From Bacteriovorax stolpii (lineage in GTDB: Bacteria > Bdellovibrionota > UBA2428), in NCBI GenBank assembly GCA_945881775.1, contig CAMCVE010000009.1, forward strand, positions 1 to 64,000: a DNA stretch of 64,000 nucleotides, in the 5' to 3' direction. The translations under genes were made by a program, and so were the position numbers. The notes beneath the pieces were generated by a model. The model made no database searches, was not told where the DNA came from, and was given only the letters and a program-made list of their open reading frames with translations. Positions 26,106-36,186 of this stretch are shown here, one piece after another (position 1 is the first letter of the stretch; each line of letters opens with the position of its first letter).

Positions 26106-27806
26106 ATGGCGATCCGATTTCTTAGGCTTCTGGCTCCGGCGCTCCTCGTTTTAATCGCGTGGCGGGCCAGGGCTTGGGTGCCCACGGGTGCGCAGGATCT
26201 CACTCTACGTCGTGAATGTCGTTCTGAGGCTCTGTCGACAAAGATCGTTAAGACTTTCGGAGACTCATCAAAACGAGATAGCTTTGACCCGCGCGTCTGG
26301 TCAAACTTCGAGGGCGTGGTGCAGGACTACTTCGATGACTGCGGAGAAGAGCTCCAGCGGAGTAGTCTCTCGAATGTCTTGGACTACGCGGAGATGTCAC
26401 TTGTCACTTATGATGTCCGCAAGCATTCTCGGATGAAAGAGGTGGAGTTTTTGCTGCCGTCCTCGGGCATGAAAGTGCGAGGTCTCATCGCGCTTCAAAA
26501 CACAACTGAGCGTCGTCCACTTGTGATCTTTAAGTGCGGCCTCACCTGCGACCTCTATGATCCTTCGATGCTTTTCACGTTGATGGTTTACTACGACATG
26601 GGCCCGTTCCATGTTCTCCTGCTACCGAGTAACTCCGGGAAAGACTTCATCAAGGCCAATCGTAGTTTCGCCGTGGGCGGCCTCGAGGAAGGGCGACAGC
26701 TGGTTGAGATTGCGCGTTACATCGAAAGCGGTTCGTGGACCTACTCGAAGAATATTTCTCGGATTCATCTTTTTGGAATGAGTCTCGGCGGGCATGCGTC
26801 TCTTTATGCGGCCATGTACGCCGACCATCTTCAGTTGCAGTCTCGAGAGACGGGACCGCTTTTTAGCTCTGTGTTTGTGGGTTGCCCCGTGGTCGACCTC
26901 AAGCCCAGCCTCGAGCGAGTGACGGGCGAGTCGTTGATCGCAAAAATCTTACGCAGAACCCTCTTCAAAAATGTTGTGGAGATGCTTAGCTTTGTTCCGT
27001 TCTTCGGTCAGTATTTCGATTCCCGCGACACGAGCTACAATCCGAGCCAAGCGGCACTTCAGGAGATGCTCCGGTCGGGTGCCGTAAACTACTATTCCTC
27101 GGTTACGGAGCGCGCTCCTTGGCGCACTCCCCCACTCGAGGATGTTCAGTTTCAGGACCCCAGGGAACTTTGGGACTGGATGAATTTTTCTAAGCGCCCT
27201 CTAGACCTTCTGGAGACCCCTATCTACGTTTGGGCTCCTCGCAACGATGATGTTGTGGAATTCAAAACAAACACTGAACAGCTCTTGGCAGGCGACAAGC
27301 GTCAGTCACGGCGTAAAATTTTCTCTCTTGATACGCCTCTCGGAGGGCACTGTGCATTCCCCTCGCTTTACGGATGGGCCGGAGCCTCGGCCATGATGAA
27401 CGCTCTTTTCCTGGCGCGTAGCCCAGAGATCCTCTCAAAAATGCGCGTGATCGATATGAAGTTTCCTCGCAAGCTCGGCTACAAGTCGCGAGCCAGTGCA
27501 CGTCGTCGGCGAACAGACGCGACCTGGATTGCTGTCGAAAACAAGCCCCACATCACTCTGCGGATGCAGTACCGCGAAGTCCCGTGTCGCCTGGGCACTG
27601 GAGGACCTCAGCGTTGCAATGGTTTTGAAACGATGAAGTTCAGCTATGCGGAACTCGGCCTGAGTGACGCGAGCATTCCGAAGACTTCGGTCGAGGCGCA
27701 TGGATTCACTCGCTGGCTCAACGCGCGCCTCAAGATGCTTGATGCTGAGAAGCGCTCACTCACCGTGAATGAGAATCCAGAGTACTTACGTTGGATACGT
27801 CTCTAG
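26106..27806 (+). CDS. Exported alpha/beta hydrolase-fold protein
   Basis: 566 residues with a signal peptide (LLAPALLVLIAWRARA). An alpha/beta hydrolase core spans about 115-430: the nucleophile elbow GMSLGGHAS (Ser226), a likely acid in WAPRNDDVVEF and a catalytic His in LGGHCAFP. About 130 residues follow with an RARRRR-like basic patch and two Cys (VPCRLG, QRCNGF). Substrate unknown; the enzyme should act in the periplasm or outside. The 3' end overlaps the convergent regulator gene by 21 bp. Confidence 0.75.
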   Translation: MAIRFLRLLAPALLVLIAWRARAWVPTGAQDLTLRRECRSEALSTKIVKTFGDSSKRDSFDPRVWSNFEGVVQDYFDDCGEELQRSSLSNVLDYAEMSLVTYDVRKHSRMKEVEFLLPSSGMKVRGLIALQNTTERRPLVIFKCGLTCDLYDPSMLFTLMVYYDMGPFHVLLLPSNSGKDFIKANRSFAVGGLEEGRQLVEIARYIESGSWTYSKNISRIHLFGMSLGGHASLYAAMYADHLQLQSRETGPLFSSVFVGCPVVDLKPSLERVTGESLIAKILRRTLFKNVVEMLSFVPFFGQYFDSRDTSYNPSQAALQEMLRSGAVNYYSSVTERAPWRTPPLEDVQFQDPRELWDWMNFSKRPLDLLETPIYVWAPRNDDVVEFKTNTEQLLAGDKRQSRRKIFSLDTPLGGHCAFPSLYGWAGASAMMNALFLARSPEILSKMRVIDMKFPRKLGYKSRASARRRRTDATWIAVENKPHITLRMQYREVPCRLGTGGPQRCNGFETMKFSYAELGLSDASIPKTSVEAHGFTRWLNARLKMLDAEKRSLTVNENPEYLRWIRL

Positions 27807-29507
27807 CGACGAGCCCTTGCCCAATTGATACCGCGTGGATCGTGTCTGTCCTATCCGAAGAATAAATCCCGTTTGTCGCAAAGCACTCAGATCGCGACAG
27901 GCTGTTGGAATGGAGCTGCCACAAAGACGGGCACATTCCGAAACCGACAGGAAGCGCACGGTTTGTAGGTGTTCTAGGATCAGGATTTGCCGATGATTGA
28001 AGCTTTTTTCGGCAAGCTTCGCGTGTTGATTTGTTGGGGGGGATCCTGTCGGTTCAGTGTTCGGGCTGGCTGATGAGCCCATTCTCAAAACTTGGGCCTG
28101 TTCTGCAATTCGGTAACCCCGTTCGCCGGTTTCGAGGGTCCCAGACCAAGTCCCTAGGGCTTTGCGGAGCGATGCAATCGCGTTGTAGACGAGAGGGTCG
28201 TGTCGGAGCGGATGATAATCGTAGCCCCAGACATCACGAACCAAATCTTCTTTACTCCTCCAACCGTTCTCGAGCTCGCCGAGAAGCTTTCGCAGTTGAC
28301 CGTCGAGTTTGCGAGTCAGTAGTTGTGCGTTCCCTTGGGCAACTCCGATGAGTGAGCCGGGCACAAGATCCAGAATGAGACTTGTTGATTTCTTCTGGAG
28401 CCGTTCGGAGTTGATGGTGTGTTGGACCACGAGTCCGAGGTAACCTTGATCGATCGCACGAGCGAGCGCAGTAGGATCTTGTTTGTGAAGGTCGTCAATG
28501 AGATCTCCTAAAGGGTCTTGGCCGCGTGCAAAGGGGTACTCACGGAGTTGACGATGAACAATACGAGAGTGTGGATAACAGCCTCTTTCGGTTGACTCTT
28601 GAATCTCCCCGAGGACTCTGGCACGCAGTCCTTCAGCTTGGAGTTTACGTGCAGTGTCGATTTTCGGGTCAAGTCCTTGGATCGAAACCTGGAGCAGGTT
28701 CAGGGCCTGGAAGCGGTCACCTCCGAGATGCTGTTGCAAGGCGTAGCGGAAGTTGACGGCAAAGACCTGACGACGCACGTTGAAGCGGTAAACGCGATCA
28801 CAGACTCGATCAAGAAGATGTTTTGCTTCTTCTGTGCGGCCTCGTAAGACCCACTGCCGAGCCAATTCCAGACCCAGCTCAGCGAAGGAATAGACATCGT
28901 CTAATTTGAGCGAACTCACGGCTATCTCAAGAGACTGGAGGCTCGTTGCGGGATCTATTCCAAATGCCGCGCGAAATTTGAGTTCAGAGACATCGATCGC
29001 CTTTAAGAAGTTTGAGTGTCCCGCTGCAAGTGCGATCTTTCTGGCCTCCTCAAAGCGCAGAAAACCAGGGCCGACATCCCCTATTGCCATCGAGAGATGC
29101 CCGGCAAGATCGTGCGCTAATAGAGAAAAGAGTGGCTCGCTGGTTGCGAACGAAGTTTCAATCGCACGAGAGGAGTGCTTGAGGCCTGTTGGAAAATCTC
29201 CCAGATAGAAATTCCAGAAAGCAAAAGCTTGATGTCCAAAAAAACGTGTCCATGGAGTTGAGTTCTTCTTGTCGAGTTGGAGGAGTTGTCCGAAGCTGCG
29301 ATGCGCCTGTGCGTATTTAGAAACGCGCACGAGGGCAACTCCATAGAAGAACAAACACGCAGCAAGATCTGCTGGATCGCTCTTCACTAAGTCGAGTGAG
29401 CGCATGAGGGCGCGCGCCTCTTCGAGTGCGCCTTGCTGGGTAAGGCTGGCTATTTTTTTCCAATAAGACCTTGTTTTAAAAGGGTTTTTTATTCTTTTTA
29501 ATTTCAA
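27786..29507 (-). CDS. TPR protein with winged-helix DNA-binding domains
   Basis: A 573-residue cytoplasmic protein. Residues about 15-330 are helical repeats of TPR type (ALEEARALMRSL, YAQAHRSFGQLLQLDK). Residues about 400-470 resemble an OmpR/SARP-type winged helix (WRSKEDLVRDVWGYDYHPL, then YNAIASLRKALG and a GYRIAE wing). Residues about 510-565 resemble a second, DeoR/MarR-like winged helix (NHRQILILEHLQ, LSVSECARLCGSS). This architecture suggests a transcription regulator with a protein-binding sensor. The N-terminal start is uncertain: the frame opens with TTG at 29507 in very AT-rich DNA with no clear Shine-Dalgarno. Confidence 0.7.
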   Translation of the reverse strand: MKLKRIKNPFKTRSYWKKIASLTQQGALEEARALMRSLDLVKSDPADLAACLFFYGVALVRVSKYAQAHRSFGQLLQLDKKNSTPWTRFFGHQAFAFWNFYLGDFPTGLKHSSRAIETSFATSEPLFSLLAHDLAGHLSMAIGDVGPGFLRFEEARKIALAAGHSNFLKAIDVSELKFRAAFGIDPATSLQSLEIAVSSLKLDDVYSFAELGLELARQWVLRGRTEEAKHLLDRVCDRVYRFNVRRQVFAVNFRYALQQHLGGDRFQALNLLQVSIQGLDPKIDTARKLQAEGLRARVLGEIQESTERGCYPHSRIVHRQLREYPFARGQDPLGDLIDDLHKQDPTALARAIDQGYLGLVVQHTINSERLQKKSTSLILDLVPGSLIGVAQGNAQLLTRKLDGQLRKLLGELENGWRSKEDLVRDVWGYDYHPLRHDPLVYNAIASLRKALGTWSGTLETGERGYRIAEQAQVLRMGSSASPNTEPTGSPPTNQHAKLAEKSFNHRQILILEHLQTVRFLSVSECARLCGSSIPTACRDLSALRQTGFILRIGQTRSTRYQLGKGSSLETYPT

Positions 29508-29617: not shown

Positions 29618-30004
29618 ATGAAAAAAATGATGTTGGTTACGACTTTGATGCTCTCGTCTGTGGGTGCTTCGGCGCTCGGGGCCTTTGGTCATCGAAATGA
29701 TGGCGGTCGCGATGACAGTCCAGCGCGCGATGGTCGCGACAGTCGTCCTGGGCTCAACTCTTCGGCTGGATTTCTCAGTGAGTCGGTCGAACACGCCCTG
29801 AGGCGTCTGGTGGCTCTGGATGCGCCCGCTGAACTGAACAACGTCGTCTCTGTCGAAGCGGCCTACCAGTCTGCGACGCAGGCCACAGTGGTTCTCATTT
29901 CGACGCCCACGAGCGAGTTTAAGTACAGCTGTAGCCTCTTCGATGATTTTTCACGTGGGGGCACGGTCGTGAAAAAAGAAGTGCGTTGCGCGCCGACCCG
30001 CTAG
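29618..30004 (+). CDS. Small exported protein, unknown
   Basis: 128 residues with a signal peptide (MKKMMLVTTLMLSSVGASA). A short Gly/Asp/Arg-rich stretch (HRNDGGRDDSPARDGRD) leads to a folded part with two Cys (YSCSLF, VRCAP) that probably pair. A strong AAGGAGG precedes the ATG. No family recognised. A terminator follows directly, so the next gene is expressed separately or by read-through. Confidence 0.7.
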   Translation: MKKMMLVTTLMLSSVGASALGAFGHRNDGGRDDSPARDGRDSRPGLNSSAGFLSESVEHALRRLVALDAPAELNNVVSVEAAYQSATQATVVLISTPTSEFKYSCSLFDDFSRGGTVVKKEVRCAPTR

Positions 30005-30013
30005 TTTCGAGAT

Positions 30014-30050
30014 ATCCCGGGGGCTTGGGGGCCCCTGGGATTTCCTTGTT
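30014..30050 (+). terminator. Rho-independent terminator
   Basis: Stem arms 30014-30024 and 30031-30041 pair over 11 bp with one G-U pair, followed by the U-rich TTTCCTTGTTT. It lies 10 bp after the stop of the small exported protein gene. Confidence 0.75.
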
Positions 30051-30081
30051 TAGGCCTGTTAAAATCGGTAGAGGAGAGCTT

Positions 30082-30606
30082 ATGAGATTGGGTTTTGAGA
30101 TGTTTCACATGATGATCTTCGTTCTCGTTATGCCTGTCTCGGTGTGGGCTCGCGGAGACCAGGACCGCGAGGTCGAGCGTGTTGAAGGAATTTATCAGGT
30201 GCCAGTGCCTGACGGAAACCAAGACGAGTCGCTCATTGTTGCAGCTGATTTTCCGGTGACTTATAAAATCACACGTCAAACGGGTCGGCCTTTAAAGATT
30301 TCTTATGATCTACCGGAGACACTGACGGGTCTGCCGAACGACGTCGAACTGCGGCAGGTTGATGAAGAGGCTAATGTTTGGCAAGGCCTGAAGGCTGAAG
30401 AGATTCAATGTGCCGAGGATCTTGCAGAGCTAGCGTGCACGATTCGCTACACAGGACTTGATGTGGATGCATCACTTGCAGGTGCTGCCATTGAAAAAGC
30501 CTTTGCGGGCACGAATCAGTTGGACGCTCGTATGGAAACGATGCGTCGGTTTCAATCTGAGCCGATCGGCGTCGTTCGAATTCCTTGGAATGTCCAAAAG
30601 CCTTAA
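30082..30606 (+). CDS. Small exported protein, unknown
   Basis: 174 residues starting at ATG 30082, with GAGGAGAG upstream; the in-frame ATG at 29986 would start inside the previous gene. Signal peptide MFHMMIFVLVMPVSVWARG. The mature part has DLPETLTGLPNDVELRQV and a Cys pair (EIQCAEDLAELACTIRY). No family recognised. It may be functionally paired with the small exported protein just upstream, given similar size, position and Cys content. Confidence 0.7.
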   Translation: MRLGFEMFHMMIFVLVMPVSVWARGDQDREVERVEGIYQVPVPDGNQDESLIVAADFPVTYKITRQTGRPLKISYDLPETLTGLPNDVELRQVDEEANVWQGLKAEEIQCAEDLAELACTIRYTGLDVDASLAGAAIEKAFAGTNQLDARMETMRRFQSEPIGVVRIPWNVQKP

Positions 30607-30612
30607 AATTTT

Positions 30613-33066
30613 TTAGTGACTCTCAAGGATCCACTTCAGTTTACGAAGCGGATCATGATAGCGCCCTTCCTCAAAACGAAAATCATAGTCACGAACCGAT
30701 CCGTTGGGGTCGGTGATCACAACGCGTGGCACGCTCGCGAGGCGGAGAGCGTCAATCAATCCGGGGTTGGCTTTTGCAGAGGGCAAGAGAAGCATCTGCT
30801 GGCATGTGGAGGCTGGTAGCTTGACTTCGGCACAGAGCAACTGAGCCTCAAAAAGACTTTCTGAACTCGACAGGCTCTCCACCAGTTGGATCTTCTCCCA
30901 AAGTTTTGGGTCGCGAATCTCTTCGCCGAGCATTTTCAAGAGTTGTTTGCAGTGGGGACACCAGCTTGCAAAGAAGATGTAGATCTCTTTGCCTTTGGCG
31001 GGGAAAAGACTCGTGCCCTCGAATTTCTCAAGCGTGGCGCGAGGCAAGCTTCCGAGCTCCTTCGAAAGCCGAGCCAAACTTTTTTCTTTCAGTTCGATTT
31101 CGATCTGCTTCACTCGTGATTCCGAACTCAGCTTGGTTTCGAACACGTAACGAGGGTACTCAGCGCGCAAACGCGAGAATAGCTCAGTGCGGAGAGCTTC
31201 GTGGCCGCTCTCAACTTTTGCAGCGACTTCAGCCAAAAGTTCAGGGCGTCGCAGGATAAACTCAGGCAAGCGCTGGAGTTCGTCTTGCAGAACTTTGGCT
31301 AGGTCCGCAGAAATCACAGGTTCTGAAAGAATCTTCACCCACTCAGAACGTAGCCCGGAGCATTCGCGAAAATGATGGGGATCGAGGGTTTTGAGGCGCT
31401 CACGACTCGCGGGCTCAAGGAGGAGTGTTTCAATCACTTGGCATTTGAAGGCAGGCAGAGCGTCGAGGCGCGCGGACCGGATATCTACGGACAGGTCTTT
31501 TGAATTGGCCTTGGGGTTCTCGAGGAAGCGCCAAGCGACGAGTGCAGCGAGGACCGAGCTAGCGAATTGTTCCGTCGTAAGAGGTTCTTTAGAAAATGAG
31601 GCTCTCGAGACAAGCCGTTTCCAAAGAGAGCCTGCCTCCGACACTTTTTGTAGGCGGTACGCCTGCCCCAAAAGATCGCTCGCTTCTTGAAGCGCTTTCT
31701 GGTGTGCGACTTGAGACAACTCAAGAGTCTCGAGCAATTGAAAGGCTGCTTCATAGATGCGGTAGCTCGTGTAAGCAGCTCCCGGGACAAGAGTCTTCTG
31801 GTAGACGGGCCACGTCTGCTCGCGAGAGTCGGTCGTTTGTCCCGAAGAGGACAGCTTTTTCAAAAGCAGAGGGATCTTTGAGAGATTAGTCTTCAAAAGT
31901 TTTCGGTCAGCGTCCGTGAATCGTGCGTGACCTTTTTTGAGCAGAGGTGAACCTGGCTCTTCGATCACCTCTGGTGATTTCGCTGACGCCTCCAGAGAAA
32001 GGTGGAAGGTGATGGGCGCACAGCCCGAATCGCATCCAGAAATGGTGTCGACTGGACGAAAGCTTGCGATGAGCTTTTTGCCTTCGAAGGCCTGCACCAG
32101 ATGCGTGTTGTAGAGGTGGCGCGAAGGTCGCGCAGCGGGCAGGTGGAACTCCGACGAAAGCGGCAGTGTGTGCCAAGTGATCCGACTTAGATCTTTGATG
32201 TTGAGCCGGGGAGAGTAAAGATCAACAAGCGACTGGACGTCGTCTCGTTTTAGATCCGCGGCAAGCATTGGTGTCGAAGCGGCGGATTCCACCTGCGCAG
32301 GAAGCTGCGGAAGTTGAAGAAATCCCTCAAGCTGCCAGCTGCTCAGAATCCGTGCGAGGGGCTCGGCGCCACTCGACGGTGAAGTCATCGCCAACATCAT
32401 CAGCGCAAACACAACGAGGGCTTGCTGAAGTTTTTCGAAGGCTCGGCGCCTGTGTGAGATAGAATTTTTCTCCGCGTAGGAGACCTCAGCAAAAGTTTTC
32501 GCAAACTGAGGAACAAAGAACACCGGGTCATAGCCAAATCCCGAATCTCCCTGAGGGGTGAATACGATTTCGCCATGACACTCGCCTTCTCCCGTCGTCT
32601 CTTTGAGGGATGTTGAATCTGCGGGCACTTGGATCAGAGCAAGCACACACGTGTAGTGAGCATGGTGAGGGGCGCTTTGGCCGGACGAACTTAGCTCGCG
32701 GATAAGTTTTGCCATGTGAGCCTCAGAAGGAACATGGTCTCCGGCATAGCGAGCCGAGTGCACTCCGGGTCTCCCCCCCAGGTTTGTCACCGAAAGGCCC
32801 GAATCGTCGGAGAGAATCCAGTAAGGCGCCTTCTCTCCACGTTTTTCTAAGATGTCACGGAGGTAGCGAGCTTTGATCAGCGCATTGCCCTCAAAATCGG
32901 GTGCACTTTCGACGGCTCCCTCGGGAGCTAGGCCAGAAATTTCGCCTTCGACTTGGAAGTACTCATGGCAGAGCGGAACAATCTCTCTGAGCTTGCCCGC
33001 ATTGCCTGTGGCTATAAAGCCTCGGCCTTTGAGTTGAGGTTTAGCATCGGGCGGGGCTATGGCCAT
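30613..33066 (-). CDS. RdgB/HAM1 pyrophosphatase fused to an exported thioredoxin-like protein
   Basis: One 817-codon frame. Residues 14-214 are a complete RdgB (dITP/XTP pyrophosphatase): ATGNAGKLREI, LSDDSGLSV, GFGYDPVFF and SISHRRRAFEKL at its natural C-terminus. Immediately after comes a hydrophobic stretch (ALVVFALMMLAM, residues 216-227) with a signal-peptidase-like SSGAEP, then about 590 residues. These end in a thioredoxin-like domain with IYIFFASWCPHCKQLLKML and the cis-Pro segment VPRVVITDPNG. Usual RdgB length is about 200 residues. The second part looks like an exported disulfide protein whose own start codon has been lost; no ATG lies before its hydrophobic core. See the finding on this gene. 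Confidence 0.8.
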   Translation of the reverse strand: MAIAPPDAKPQLKGRGFIATGNAGKLREIVPLCHEYFQVEGEISGLAPEGAVESAPDFEGNALIKARYLRDILEKRGEKAPYWILSDDSGLSVTNLGGRPGVHSARYAGDHVPSEAHMAKLIRELSSSGQSAPHHAHYTCVLALIQVPADSTSLKETTGEGECHGEIVFTPQGDSGFGYDPVFFVPQFAKTFAEVSYAEKNSISHRRRAFEKLQQALVVFALMMLAMTSPSSGAEPLARILSSWQLEGFLQLPQLPAQVESAASTPMLAADLKRDDVQSLVDLYSPRLNIKDLSRITWHTLPLSSEFHLPAARPSRHLYNTHLVQAFEGKKLIASFRPVDTISGCDSGCAPITFHLSLEASAKSPEVIEEPGSPLLKKGHARFTDADRKLLKTNLSKIPLLLKKLSSSGQTTDSREQTWPVYQKTLVPGAAYTSYRIYEAAFQLLETLELSQVAHQKALQEASDLLGQAYRLQKVSEAGSLWKRLVSRASFSKEPLTTEQFASSVLAALVAWRFLENPKANSKDLSVDIRSARLDALPAFKCQVIETLLLEPASRERLKTLDPHHFRECSGLRSEWVKILSEPVISADLAKVLQDELQRLPEFILRRPELLAEVAAKVESGHEALRTELFSRLRAEYPRYVFETKLSSESRVKQIEIELKEKSLARLSKELGSLPRATLEKFEGTSLFPAKGKEIYIFFASWCPHCKQLLKMLGEEIRDPKLWEKIQLVESLSSSESLFEAQLLCAEVKLPASTCQQMLLLPSAKANPGLIDALRLASVPRVVITDPNGSVRDYDFRFEEGRYHDPLRKLKWILESH

Positions 33067-33097: not shown

Positions 33098-33832
33098 TCA
33101 CTTACGCCAAGCAAGAGGTCCCAGAAGCTCGGCCTGCAGCGCGCAAAGTTCTTTGCAGCCCTTGCGGCCGAGTGCGAGCATCTCGTGGAACTCCTCTTCA
33201 GTGAAAGGTTCCTTTTCGGCGGTGCCTTGAATCTCAATCATCTTGCCGTCGTGGGTCATGACGAGATTCATGTCGGTGTCGGCGCTGGAATCTTCAAGGT
33301 AGTCGAGGTCAAGAACAGGGGCGCCTTTGACCATGCCCACAGAAATCGCAGAAACATAGCTCTTAAGAGGGAAGGGGAAGGAGTCCGAGATTTTGCCGCG
33401 TTTGTGCAAGTGGTGAATGGCCTGTGTCAGAGCAATGAAAGCGCCGGTGATGCTCGCCGTGCGAGTTCCGCCGTCGGCCTGAAGCACGTCGCAGTCGAGA
33501 GTGATGGATCGCTCACCGAGCCACTCGCTGCGCACGACAGAGCGAAGCGCGCGCCCGATAAGACGCTGAATCTCGGTGGTGCGTCCGCCGACTTTGGTGC
33601 GTTCGCGGCGGATACGCTCAGAGCTCGCGCGGGGGAGCATGTTGTACTCTCCGGTGACCCATCCCTTACCCTGGCCACGCAGGTGGTGAGGAACGCCATC
33701 TTCGATGGTGGCCACGCAGAGAACTTTTGTGCGGCCGTACTCAACAAGGCACGAGCCTTCGGCATAGTCGTAATAGTTGAGGGTGATTTTGACGTCGCGT
33801 TTTTGGTCGGGAGTCCGGTTTCCTGATCGCAT
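33098..33832 (-). CDS. rph: Ribonuclease PH
   Basis: 244 residues of the RNase PH fold. It has [13 protein letters not shown] near the N-terminus, [17 protein letters not shown], the phosphate-site segment containing [15 protein letters not shown], and [14 protein letters not shown]. It trims tRNA 3' ends by phosphorolysis. Neighbouring rph and rdgB is a common arrangement in bacteria, with rdgB starting 31 bp downstream here. Confidence 0.95.
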
Positions 33833-33897: not shown

Positions 33898-35067
33898 CTA
33901 TTTTTGAGGCTTTTTCAGAGCGCTGGCGATCTTCTGCGCGAGGCCCTCTGCGAGGACGCGTCGTGTGTCGGGGTTACGGACCTTCTCGAGGTCCTCGGTG
34001 TGGCTGATGTATCCTAGCTCTAGCAGTAGGGCCGGCATTTGCGACGCGTAGAGGACGTAGAAAGGGCCCATCCGCACGCTTCGAGATGAGGAGGGTTTGA
34101 ATTGCTCTTTGAGATACTGGCCCGTGACGTCGGCCCACCTGAGCGAGCGCTCGAAATTGGCACCCGCACGTAGGTCGGCCACGGCCTTCTCGAAACCTTC
34201 GGGCAAATCGCTCGGAATGAACTGTTGTTCGCGCGCGACGGCAGCGCGACCGCTTCCGTCGTCTTTGGTCAACGAAAGAACATAGACTTCAAAGCCGTTT
34301 TGTTCTGCCTGAAGACTCGCATTCATGTGTAAGGACAAAAACAGTTTTGCCGAGCTGCGATTTGCGATCCGAGCTCTCTCAGATAAAGTTACGAACACGT
34401 CGCTCTCCCGGGTCATCAAACTTTTTACGCCGAGAGCAGTGAGTGCCGTTTTGAGATCTTGCGCAAAGGCAAGAACCAGATCTTTCTCCAAGACACCTGC
34501 GTTCTGAGCCCCGTAGTCGTTGCCTCCGTGCCCTGGGTCCAGGATCACGTGCACGGACTTGAGGAGGCGCTCGTCTGAGGGGAAGAGTGGGGTTTCAGAC
34601 GTTTTGCCACTGAGGAGCGGGCGAAGGACTCGGTCGCCGAATTCGATGGGCACGCAAAGGGATTTTCCGACAAACTCGGGTCGGCGCGAAAGAAAAGTGC
34701 GAGCTTCGGTGAAAAGAATCGCGGGTAGATCAAGCCCTTTTCGTTTTTTGGCGTAACTCGAGGGTGCGCCTTTAGCAAAGAGCAAAGTGACATCGGAAGA
34801 GTAAGTCTTAAAGCGCGCGAAATTTCCGCGAGAAGGATTCTCGAGGAGAACTTCAAAACTCGCGGGATCGTAACGAAGCTTCAGTCCAAAGCGTGCCATG
34901 AGATCCGCGAGGCAAATGTAAGGAGTGCCTCGAACACTGTGAGCTCGCGGAAATGTTTGATCGCCAGTTGGTCCATGAAAAATCCAGGAATTCTCAGAGA
35001 GGTTGGCGGAGGCTTGGCCTCCCCAAAAAAGGCTGACAAATAAGCAGAGCTTTAGAAGACGCGACAA
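33898..35067 (-). CDS. N-acetylmuramoyl-L-alanine amidase (AmiC/Amidase_3 type)
   Basis: 389 residues with a signal peptide (LLKLCLFVSLFWGGQASA). An N-terminal domain of about 150 residues precedes the zinc amidase: VILDPGHGGNDYGA (His), LEKDLVL (Glu), LFLSLHMNAS (His) and LLLELGYIS (catalytic Glu). It cuts the amide between MurNAc and L-Ala of peptidoglycan in the periplasm. The start is a TTG with AGAGGA five bases upstream, 9 bp after the ychF stop. Confidence 0.9.
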   Translation of the reverse strand: MSRLLKLCLFVSLFWGGQASANLSENSWIFHGPTGDQTFPRAHSVRGTPYICLADLMARFGLKLRYDPASFEVLLENPSRGNFARFKTYSSDVTLLFAKGAPSSYAKKRKGLDLPAILFTEARTFLSRRPEFVGKSLCVPIEFGDRVLRPLLSGKTSETPLFPSDERLLKSVHVILDPGHGGNDYGAQNAGVLEKDLVLAFAQDLKTALTALGVKSLMTRESDVFVTLSERARIANRSSAKLFLSLHMNASLQAEQNGFEVYVLSLTKDDGSGRAAVAREQQFIPSDLPEGFEKAVADLRAGANFERSLRWADVTGQYLKEQFKPSSSRSVRMGPFYVLYASQMPALLLELGYISHTEDLEKVRNPDTRRVLAEGLAQKIASALKKPQK

Positions 35068-35076
35068 AGCGTTCCT

Positions 35077-36186
35077 CTACACGTTGAAGCGGAAGAGCAT
35101 GATGTCGCCATCGCGGACGACGTACTCTTTGCCCTCTTTGCGCATGAGTCCGGCTTCTTTGATCTTCGACACGCTTTGATACTTGAGGAGGTCTTCGTAG
35201 CTGTAGGTCTCTGCAGCGATGAAGCCCTTCTCAAAATCCGTGTGAATAACACCTGCAGCCTGGGGGCCTTTCCAGCCGCGGTGGATGGTCCAGGCGCGCA
35301 CTTCTTGCTCGCCGGCGGTGAAGTAGGTGATGAGGCCAAGAATTTTGTAGGCACCTTTTACGAGGCGCTGCAGACCTGAGTCGGTGAGTCCCAAATCTTC
35401 TAGGAAAGACTTGCGGTCTACAAGGGGGATTTCGCTGAGTTCGGCTTCGACTTTCGCGCTGATGGCAATCGCTTCGGCTCCGTGAGCGGCGGCGTAGTCC
35501 GTCAGTTTCTTGAAGTGAGGGTTTTTGTTTTCGACGCCGCTTCCGGCGTTGGATTCGTCGATGTTGCCGACGTAGAGCATCGGAAGCGAGGTGATGAGTT
35601 GAACTTCTTTCATCGCTTCCTTGCCTTCTTCGTCGATCGTGACGCTACGAGCGGGCTTTCCGGCCTCGAGAGCTGTTTTAAGAGCGCCCATGACTTCCAT
35701 TTGCTTGAGGGCTTTTTTGTCGCCGCTGCGCGCGAGTTTGGCGACTTTCTCCATGCGTTTTTCGACGTTCGCGAGGTCGGCGAGCATGAGCTCGGTCTCG
35801 ATGATTTCGATGTCGCGAATCGGATCGACGCTGCCGCTCACGTGCACGACGTCGCCGTCGTCGAAGCAGCGCACGACCTGGACGATCGCGTCGCAGTCGC
35901 GGATGTGCGAGAGGAATTGGTTGCCGAGGCCTTCACCTTTTGAAGCGCCTTTAACGAGTCCAGCGATGTCGACAAACTCGATGTGTGTGGGAACTGTTTT
36001 CTGGGGTTTGACATACTCGGTGATTTTGTCGAGACGCTCGTCGGGAACTTGCACGATGCCCGTGTTCGGGTCGATGGTGCAGAAGGGGTAGTTTGCTGAT
36101 TCCGCCTTCGCGTTTTCGGAGAGAGCGTTGAAGAGAGTGGATTTACCGACGTTGGGAAGGCCAACGATTCCGCACTTAAGAGCCAT
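35077..36186 (-). CDS. ychF: Ribosome-binding ATPase YchF
   Basis: 369 residues of the Obg-family protein YchF. The G1 P-loop is [14 protein letters not shown], switch regions include [16 protein letters not shown], the G4-equivalent that gives ATP preference is VGNIDES, and the C-terminal TGS-like domain ends [24 protein letters not shown] sits about 8 bp before the ATG on this strand. It precedes the TTG start of the amidase gene by 9 bp. Confidence 0.95.

Follow-up and report, generated by a model that had tools for sequence, protein, structure and literature searches.

The DNA analysed here (the window, 64,000 nucleotides) comes from one uncultured Bdellovibrionota genome, represented by one draft assembly of 34 contigs. 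On its minus strand, from 33066 down to 30613, lies an uninterrupted ATG-to-stop frame of 817 amino acids that encodes, in order, an RdgB domain, a hydrophobic stretch (residues 216-227), the sequence SSGAEP at residues 231-236 and, beginning with its EP, 583 residues whose last part is a thioredoxin-like domain with CPHC (Table 1). This arrangement is as a preliminary description of the locus had outlined it, with no spacer before the hydrophobic stretch and with about 590 residues then estimated for the last part, which we call TrxL. Codon bias, trained on 41 other long ORFs of the window, prefers this frame (frame 0) on either side of the join and through it; over residues 205-234 it scores 0.23 bits per codon, against -0.92 and 0.02 for the two other frames. 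Four other genomes contain conserved full-length homologues of the TrxL half; together with this codon bias, they show that the fused frame is not a chance ORF.

Table 1. Features of the fused frame and its upstream neighbours (positions in the window).
Feature	Position	Strand	Basis
Fused ORF rdgB::trxL, 817 aa	30613..33066	minus	ATG start, no in-frame stop
RdgB (XTP/dITP pyrophosphatase) domain, residues 1-217	32416..33066	minus	Pfam, PDB alignment, motifs
ATC codon 203, 9 nt after GCGGAG, possible rare start	32458..32460	minus	sequence only
Internal signal-peptide-like segment, residues 204-234	32365..32457	minus	sequence, hydropathy, aligned position in homologues
TrxL mature part (putative), residues 235-817	30616..32364	minus	homologues L036 771-2606, L037 7014-8882, L031 4872-6683, L045 1201-3042, L046 1399-3183
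TrxL N-terminal domain, about residues 295-440 (TISGCDSGCAPITFHL ... QTW)	31747..32184	minus	hhalign, alignment
C-terminal thioredoxin-like domain	30616..30999 (CPHC 30960-30949)	minus	Pfam sub-threshold, family alignment
rph (RNase PH), upstream	33098..33832	minus	operon order as in relatives
N-acetylmuramoyl-L-alanine amidase and ychF, upstream	33898..36186	minus	conserved context

The first 217 residues are a whole RdgB, as had been claimed: they align to the native end of the enzyme and keep all of its conserved motifs. Pfam Ham1p_like (PF01725) covers residues 18-215 with 165.7 bits against a gathering threshold of 22.5 (E 1.4e-48), and the best PDB relative, E. coli YggV/RdgB (1k7k, E 3e-29), aligns over residues 17-217 and up to chain residue 216 of 221, five residues short of the chain end. 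The RdgB/HAM1 motifs T/S-x-N-x-x-K (TGNAGK, 20-25), DDSGL (87-91), GFGYDP (176-181) and SHR (204-206) are all present. The NCBIfam whole-protein equivalog cut-offs are missed (TIGR00042, 129.4 against 145.35 bits; NF011397, 161.9 against 234 bits); judged by sequence, fold and motifs are those of RdgB, and the exact equivalog call falls below the cut-off. Compared with the E. coli enzyme (1k7k/2pyu, PF01725), the fused RdgB is alike in all conserved motifs and in its length to the C-terminal helix, but it has no stop there, continues for 600 further residues and carries straight after the last helix a hydrophobic segment that is absent from the other RdgB tails that we read. Another HAM1 protein joined to a partner, NF002698 (PRK02491, 328 aa), has the reverse arrangement, with the partner N-terminal and HAM1 in the C-terminal part, whereas here the partner is C-terminal and has the marks of an exported protein. 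At its N-terminus, the RdgB of the window has about 13 additional residues (MAIAPPDAKPQLK, 33027-33066) that are absent from those of two relatives, G001 and G003.

TrxL consists of a conserved N-terminal domain (TxxGCxSGCxPxxFHL ... TW), a helical middle part and the C-terminal thioredoxin-like domain. Full-length copies among 369 genomes of the phylum number six: that of the window genome, two in G002 (copies a and b), and one each in G125, G170 and G172, the G170 contig being that of the public Bacteriovoracaceae genome UBA7317 (L031). A scan of contigs across all bacteria yielded one full TrxL, that of UBA7317, which is not fused. Fifty-odd columns are invariant across the six copies, WCPHC among them, and since the window copy keeps these residues we regard it as intact. 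Its CPHC (703-706) is accompanied by the cis-proline P780 in VPR, the combination of CxxC and cis-proline characteristic of thioredoxins; the Pfam thioredoxin gathering threshold of 23.5 bits is missed by the window protein (15.2) and passed by the G125 homologue (25.1). Each of the five other copies begins with a start and an export signal of its own, namely the leader MNFSRFALGLSVALATPAGA in G002 copy a, lipoprotein-type leaders in G002 copy b (LAAC) and G125 (LTSC), and hydrophobic leaders in G170 and G172. On these sequences, TrxL is a real family of exported proteins. AlphaFold models were of very low confidence both for the full-length fused protein (pLDDT 36, 3-row alignment) and for the N-terminal domain (pLDDT 41, 2 rows).

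The N-terminal domain is homologous to exported proteins of about 190 residues (hhalign probability 99.6, E 3e-24), and a PDB profile search with this short family found no relative. The domain (TTGCxSGCxPxxF ... DxxSGAT; in the window at 31747-32184, and at L054, L056, L059, L063 and other short-protein loci of family f8) is unannotated and has no Pfam match; it occurs on its own in many Bacteriovoracaceae-like genomes and at the N-terminus of TrxL, and it is a possible new substrate of ApbE (FAD:protein FMN transferase).

Between the two halves lies a segment with the layout of a signal peptide: a basic part, SHRRRAFEKLQQ, formed by the C-terminal helix of RdgB, the core ALVVFALMMLAM, then TSPSSGA and a predicted cleavage site between A234 and E235. 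The core (residues 216-227) is the most hydrophobic 12-mer of the whole protein, with a mean Kyte-Doolittle value of 2.8. By inspection and hydropathy, on which this putative call is based, the segment has what signal peptidase I substrates show, with an RRR/K n-region, a hydrophobic core within the typical 7-15 residues and S232 and A234 as small residues at positions -3 and -1; it lacks the N-terminal location of a Sec signal peptide, as it begins at residue 204. It occupies the same aligned place as the signal peptides of the TrxL homologues. The preliminary description was right that no ATG precedes the core and that GTG219, which is present, would make a poor start for a signal peptide, having neither a basic n-region nor a Shine-Dalgarno sequence. 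Only one frame beginning with ATG, GTG or TTG contains the n-region, and it is the 817-residue one. A permanent tether between the two proteins had also been proposed; the in-frame fusion stands, but the tether is less certain, since the segment resembles a cleavable signal peptide and RdgB and TrxL may therefore be separated after export.

Members of the family share the upstream gene order ychF-amidase-rph-rdgB. Within the taxonomic order, the comparison covered four genomes, each of a different genus. The sister genus G002 has amidase-rph-rdgB-nth-eamA-trxL, with the genes from rdgB to trxL in one direction, with a stop after rdgB and with trxL as a separate gene, third after rdgB. This order follows from two contigs that meet inside eamA: C101 carries amidase-rph-rdgB-nth-eamA and ends within eamA, while C137 starts in the same eamA and continues to trxL, and their ends overlap by 150 nt, of which 149 are identical. 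A 647-residue RdgB frame in G002 is not a further fusion: it is open upstream through masked bases, and its rdgB stops after ALAKKVR. The rdgB genes end normally with a stop after AFEQLVDELREQTH in G001, AFENFSFEF in G003 and AFAALAKKVR in G002; neither G001 nor G003 yielded a trxL. The best nth relative in the window genome lies on a different contig, and for the G002 eamA no relative was detected there. Homologues carrying the same join, for which the preliminary description had advised a search, are absent: among the 369 genomes, where any RdgB-TrxL fusion would be expected as a TrxL match in a frame some 800 codons long, the join occurs in the window genome only, and our literature search found no RdgB-thioredoxin fusion. 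Separate genes in related genomes had been named as an argument against the join. The relatives do have them, but they belong to different genera, with 41-47% RdgB identity, so that the join appears derived and lineage-specific rather than false.

Elsewhere in the window, the plus strand carries at 29618-30606 two small exported-looking proteins, convergent with the fusion and without Pfam matches. A 573-residue protein encoded at 27786-29507 has weak matches to TPR, OmpR-type C-terminal and DeoR-type HTH domains and could be a regulator that binds DNA through two of its parts.

One clue to the role of TrxL comes from its neighbours in other genomes. A short ApbE is the next gene in four of the five non-fused copies (G002 copy b, G125, G170 and G172); the window genome encodes one of this short type too (L078), unlinked to TrxL, and neither TrxL nor ApbE was detected in G001 and G003. 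The short subtype, whose match to the 266-position Pfam model is confined to positions 1-171, tracks with TrxL (L046 3086-3961, L037 6106-7221, L031 6727-7602, L045 3061-3924, L078 1345-2217). In G363, one protein of 622 residues (L048 1321-3189) unites the N-terminal domain with a ResA-like CPDC thioredoxin and with an ApbE domain. DsbD-type proteins are present in all these genomes. Five of eight short homologues of the N-terminal domain carry [S/T]GAT (SGAT or TGAT), the target motif of ApbE (PMC8238504); the canonical [S/T]GA[S/T] is absent from TrxL, which has QTW in its place, and the threonine aligned to the motif, T418, is invariant in TrxL. We considered membership of the N-terminal domain in FMN_bind and rejected it, as there was no Pfam match and a profile-profile comparison with FMN_bind proteins, run alongside an RdgB control, gave an hhalign probability of 6.5%. 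Hybrid systems of thioredoxin-like proteins and flavinylation, with DsbD and ApbE, have been described (Meheust et al. 2021, PMC8238504). TrxL resembles them in being exported, thioredoxin-like and linked to ApbE in the genome, but differs in lacking [S/T]GA[S/T], in not being a DUF3570, DUF2271 or FMN_bind protein by Pfam, and in having no adjacent DsbD. Because of its link to ApbE in most relatives, TrxL probably serves periplasmic flavin/thiol electron transfer, by analogy with these DsbD-thioredoxin-ApbE hybrids; its role is probably unrelated to RdgB, and we saw no sign of an involvement with nucleotides.

No second RdgB gene was found in the window genome, and since its only RdgB and its only TrxL lie in the fused ORF, both halves must be expressed from it; no sigma-70-like promoter for trxL was found within rdgB. 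We think it rather probable that the frame is a lineage-specific gene fusion, which arose through in-frame loss from an ancestral rdgB-nth-eamA-trxL arrangement and yields one precursor with RdgB cytoplasmic and TrxL exported. The simplest and most likely history, read from one outgroup (G002, 73% complete), is that the loss of nth and eamA joined the end of rdgB to the core of the trxL signal peptide; alternatively, the gene order could have been expanded in G002 instead of lost in the window lineage. The DNA between the last codons of rdgB and that core would have been removed in frame, together with the own start and basic n-region of TrxL, so that the C-terminal helix of RdgB (SHRRRAFEKLQQ, with RRR/K) would now supply the n-region. 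A ribosome translating the ORF over its full length, as we infer, would make RdgB first, and the internal signal peptide would then target the chain to the Sec translocon in an N-in/C-out orientation; the positive charges before the core, by the positive-inside rule, suggest RdgB on the cytoplasmic side and TrxL outside. RdgB would clean nucleotide pools in the cytoplasm and exported TrxL would do redox work in the periplasm, with ApbE and a DsbD-type reductant as probable partners. A cut by signal peptidase I between A234 and E235 is probable and would leave RdgB with a hydrophobic tail of about 17 residues; without cleavage, RdgB would remain tethered to the inner membrane and TrxL would lie on its outer side.

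That the product is a two-compartment polyprotein of this kind, in which the RdgB helix is the n-region of an internal cleavable signal, TrxL is periplasmic and RdgB possibly membrane-anchored, is a reading we hold tentatively, at somewhat under even chances. There is a precedent in FbcH of Bradyrhizobium, a precursor of cytochrome b and cytochrome c1 that has an internal signal peptide and is cut by signal peptidase. It likewise gives two proteins across the membrane from one precursor with an internal cleavable signal, but FbcH joins two subunits of one complex, while RdgB and TrxL have no known functional link.

An assembly or consensus artefact, with a stop, an indel or further genes (nth-eamA, for example) lying between rdgB and trxL in the true genome, seems to us unlikely. 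It would suit a draft genome and the separate genes of the relatives, and there is a run of five A (GAAAAAC) at the join, where the removal of one A would give RAFENFS, like the RAFENFSFEF at the end of the G003 enzyme. However, five-base homopolymers are usually harmless, and we rejected this slip, for it would deprive TrxL of its signal peptide, leaving it only MFALMMLAM... from the GTG without a basic n-region, and other RdgBs fit frame 0 better: beyond the A run that frame already agrees with the enzymes of E. coli and G001, its AFEKLQQAL matching AFEQLVDEL of the latter. The idea that a sequencing error hides a stop between the parts found no support among other small edits either. As the positions of the start codons in frame 0 are fixed, none of the indels of 1-2 nt that keep RdgB to its native end at residue 217, among the edits listed, produces two well-formed genes; TrxL becomes at best MFALMMLAMTSPSSGA from GTG219, lacking a basic n-region. 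The 161 nt that span the junction occur once in the genome, which leaves no repeat from which a chimera could have formed, and the flanking genes are intact.

The choice put forward earlier, a real fusion or a cryptic start, falls to the in-frame fusion as the best reading, with a cryptic start weak at GTG219 and less implausible at the rare start codon ATC203. Production of TrxL mainly from ATC203 (signal peptide ISHRRRAFEKLQQALVVFALMMLAMTSPSSGA, 32 residues) or, less plausibly, from GTG219, with the read-through product minor or degraded, strikes us as quite improbable. The GCGGAG reported upstream of the junction is there, but it stands before ATC203 and not before any ATG, GTG or TTG, and although the n-region, core and c-region that would follow are textbook-like, ATC is a very inefficient start codon. 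Protein constraint explains the GCGGAG, because it encodes the conserved A-E of the RdgB motif AEKNxxSHR. Moreover, there is no stop after rdgB, so that ribosomes finishing RdgB all read into TrxL. Least probable of all, indeed very improbable, is a selected bifunctional protein in which a tethered RdgB would be coupled to the redox state of the periplasm, for example under oxidative stress with deaminated or oxidised nucleotides. Two intact modules are physically fused, as such a protein would require, but elsewhere the partner of TrxL is ApbE and not a nucleotide enzyme, trxL is in G002 merely an operon neighbour of rdgB, and there is no other example of the join. The fusion looks like a tolerated accident of gene order.

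If real, this would be a natural case in which the loss of intervening operon genes has joined a cytosolic to an exported enzyme, and in which the C-terminus of the upstream protein is re-used as the n-region of a signal peptide. It would also open a test of how deep a signal peptide may lie after a folded cytosolic domain, and of whether signal peptidase restores two proteins. Annotation pipelines risk calling the fused ORF a lone cytosolic RdgB or a lone thioredoxin. Finally, the TrxL family, with its tie to ApbE, is a candidate for a part in flavin/thiol electron transfer in the periplasm that has not been described before.
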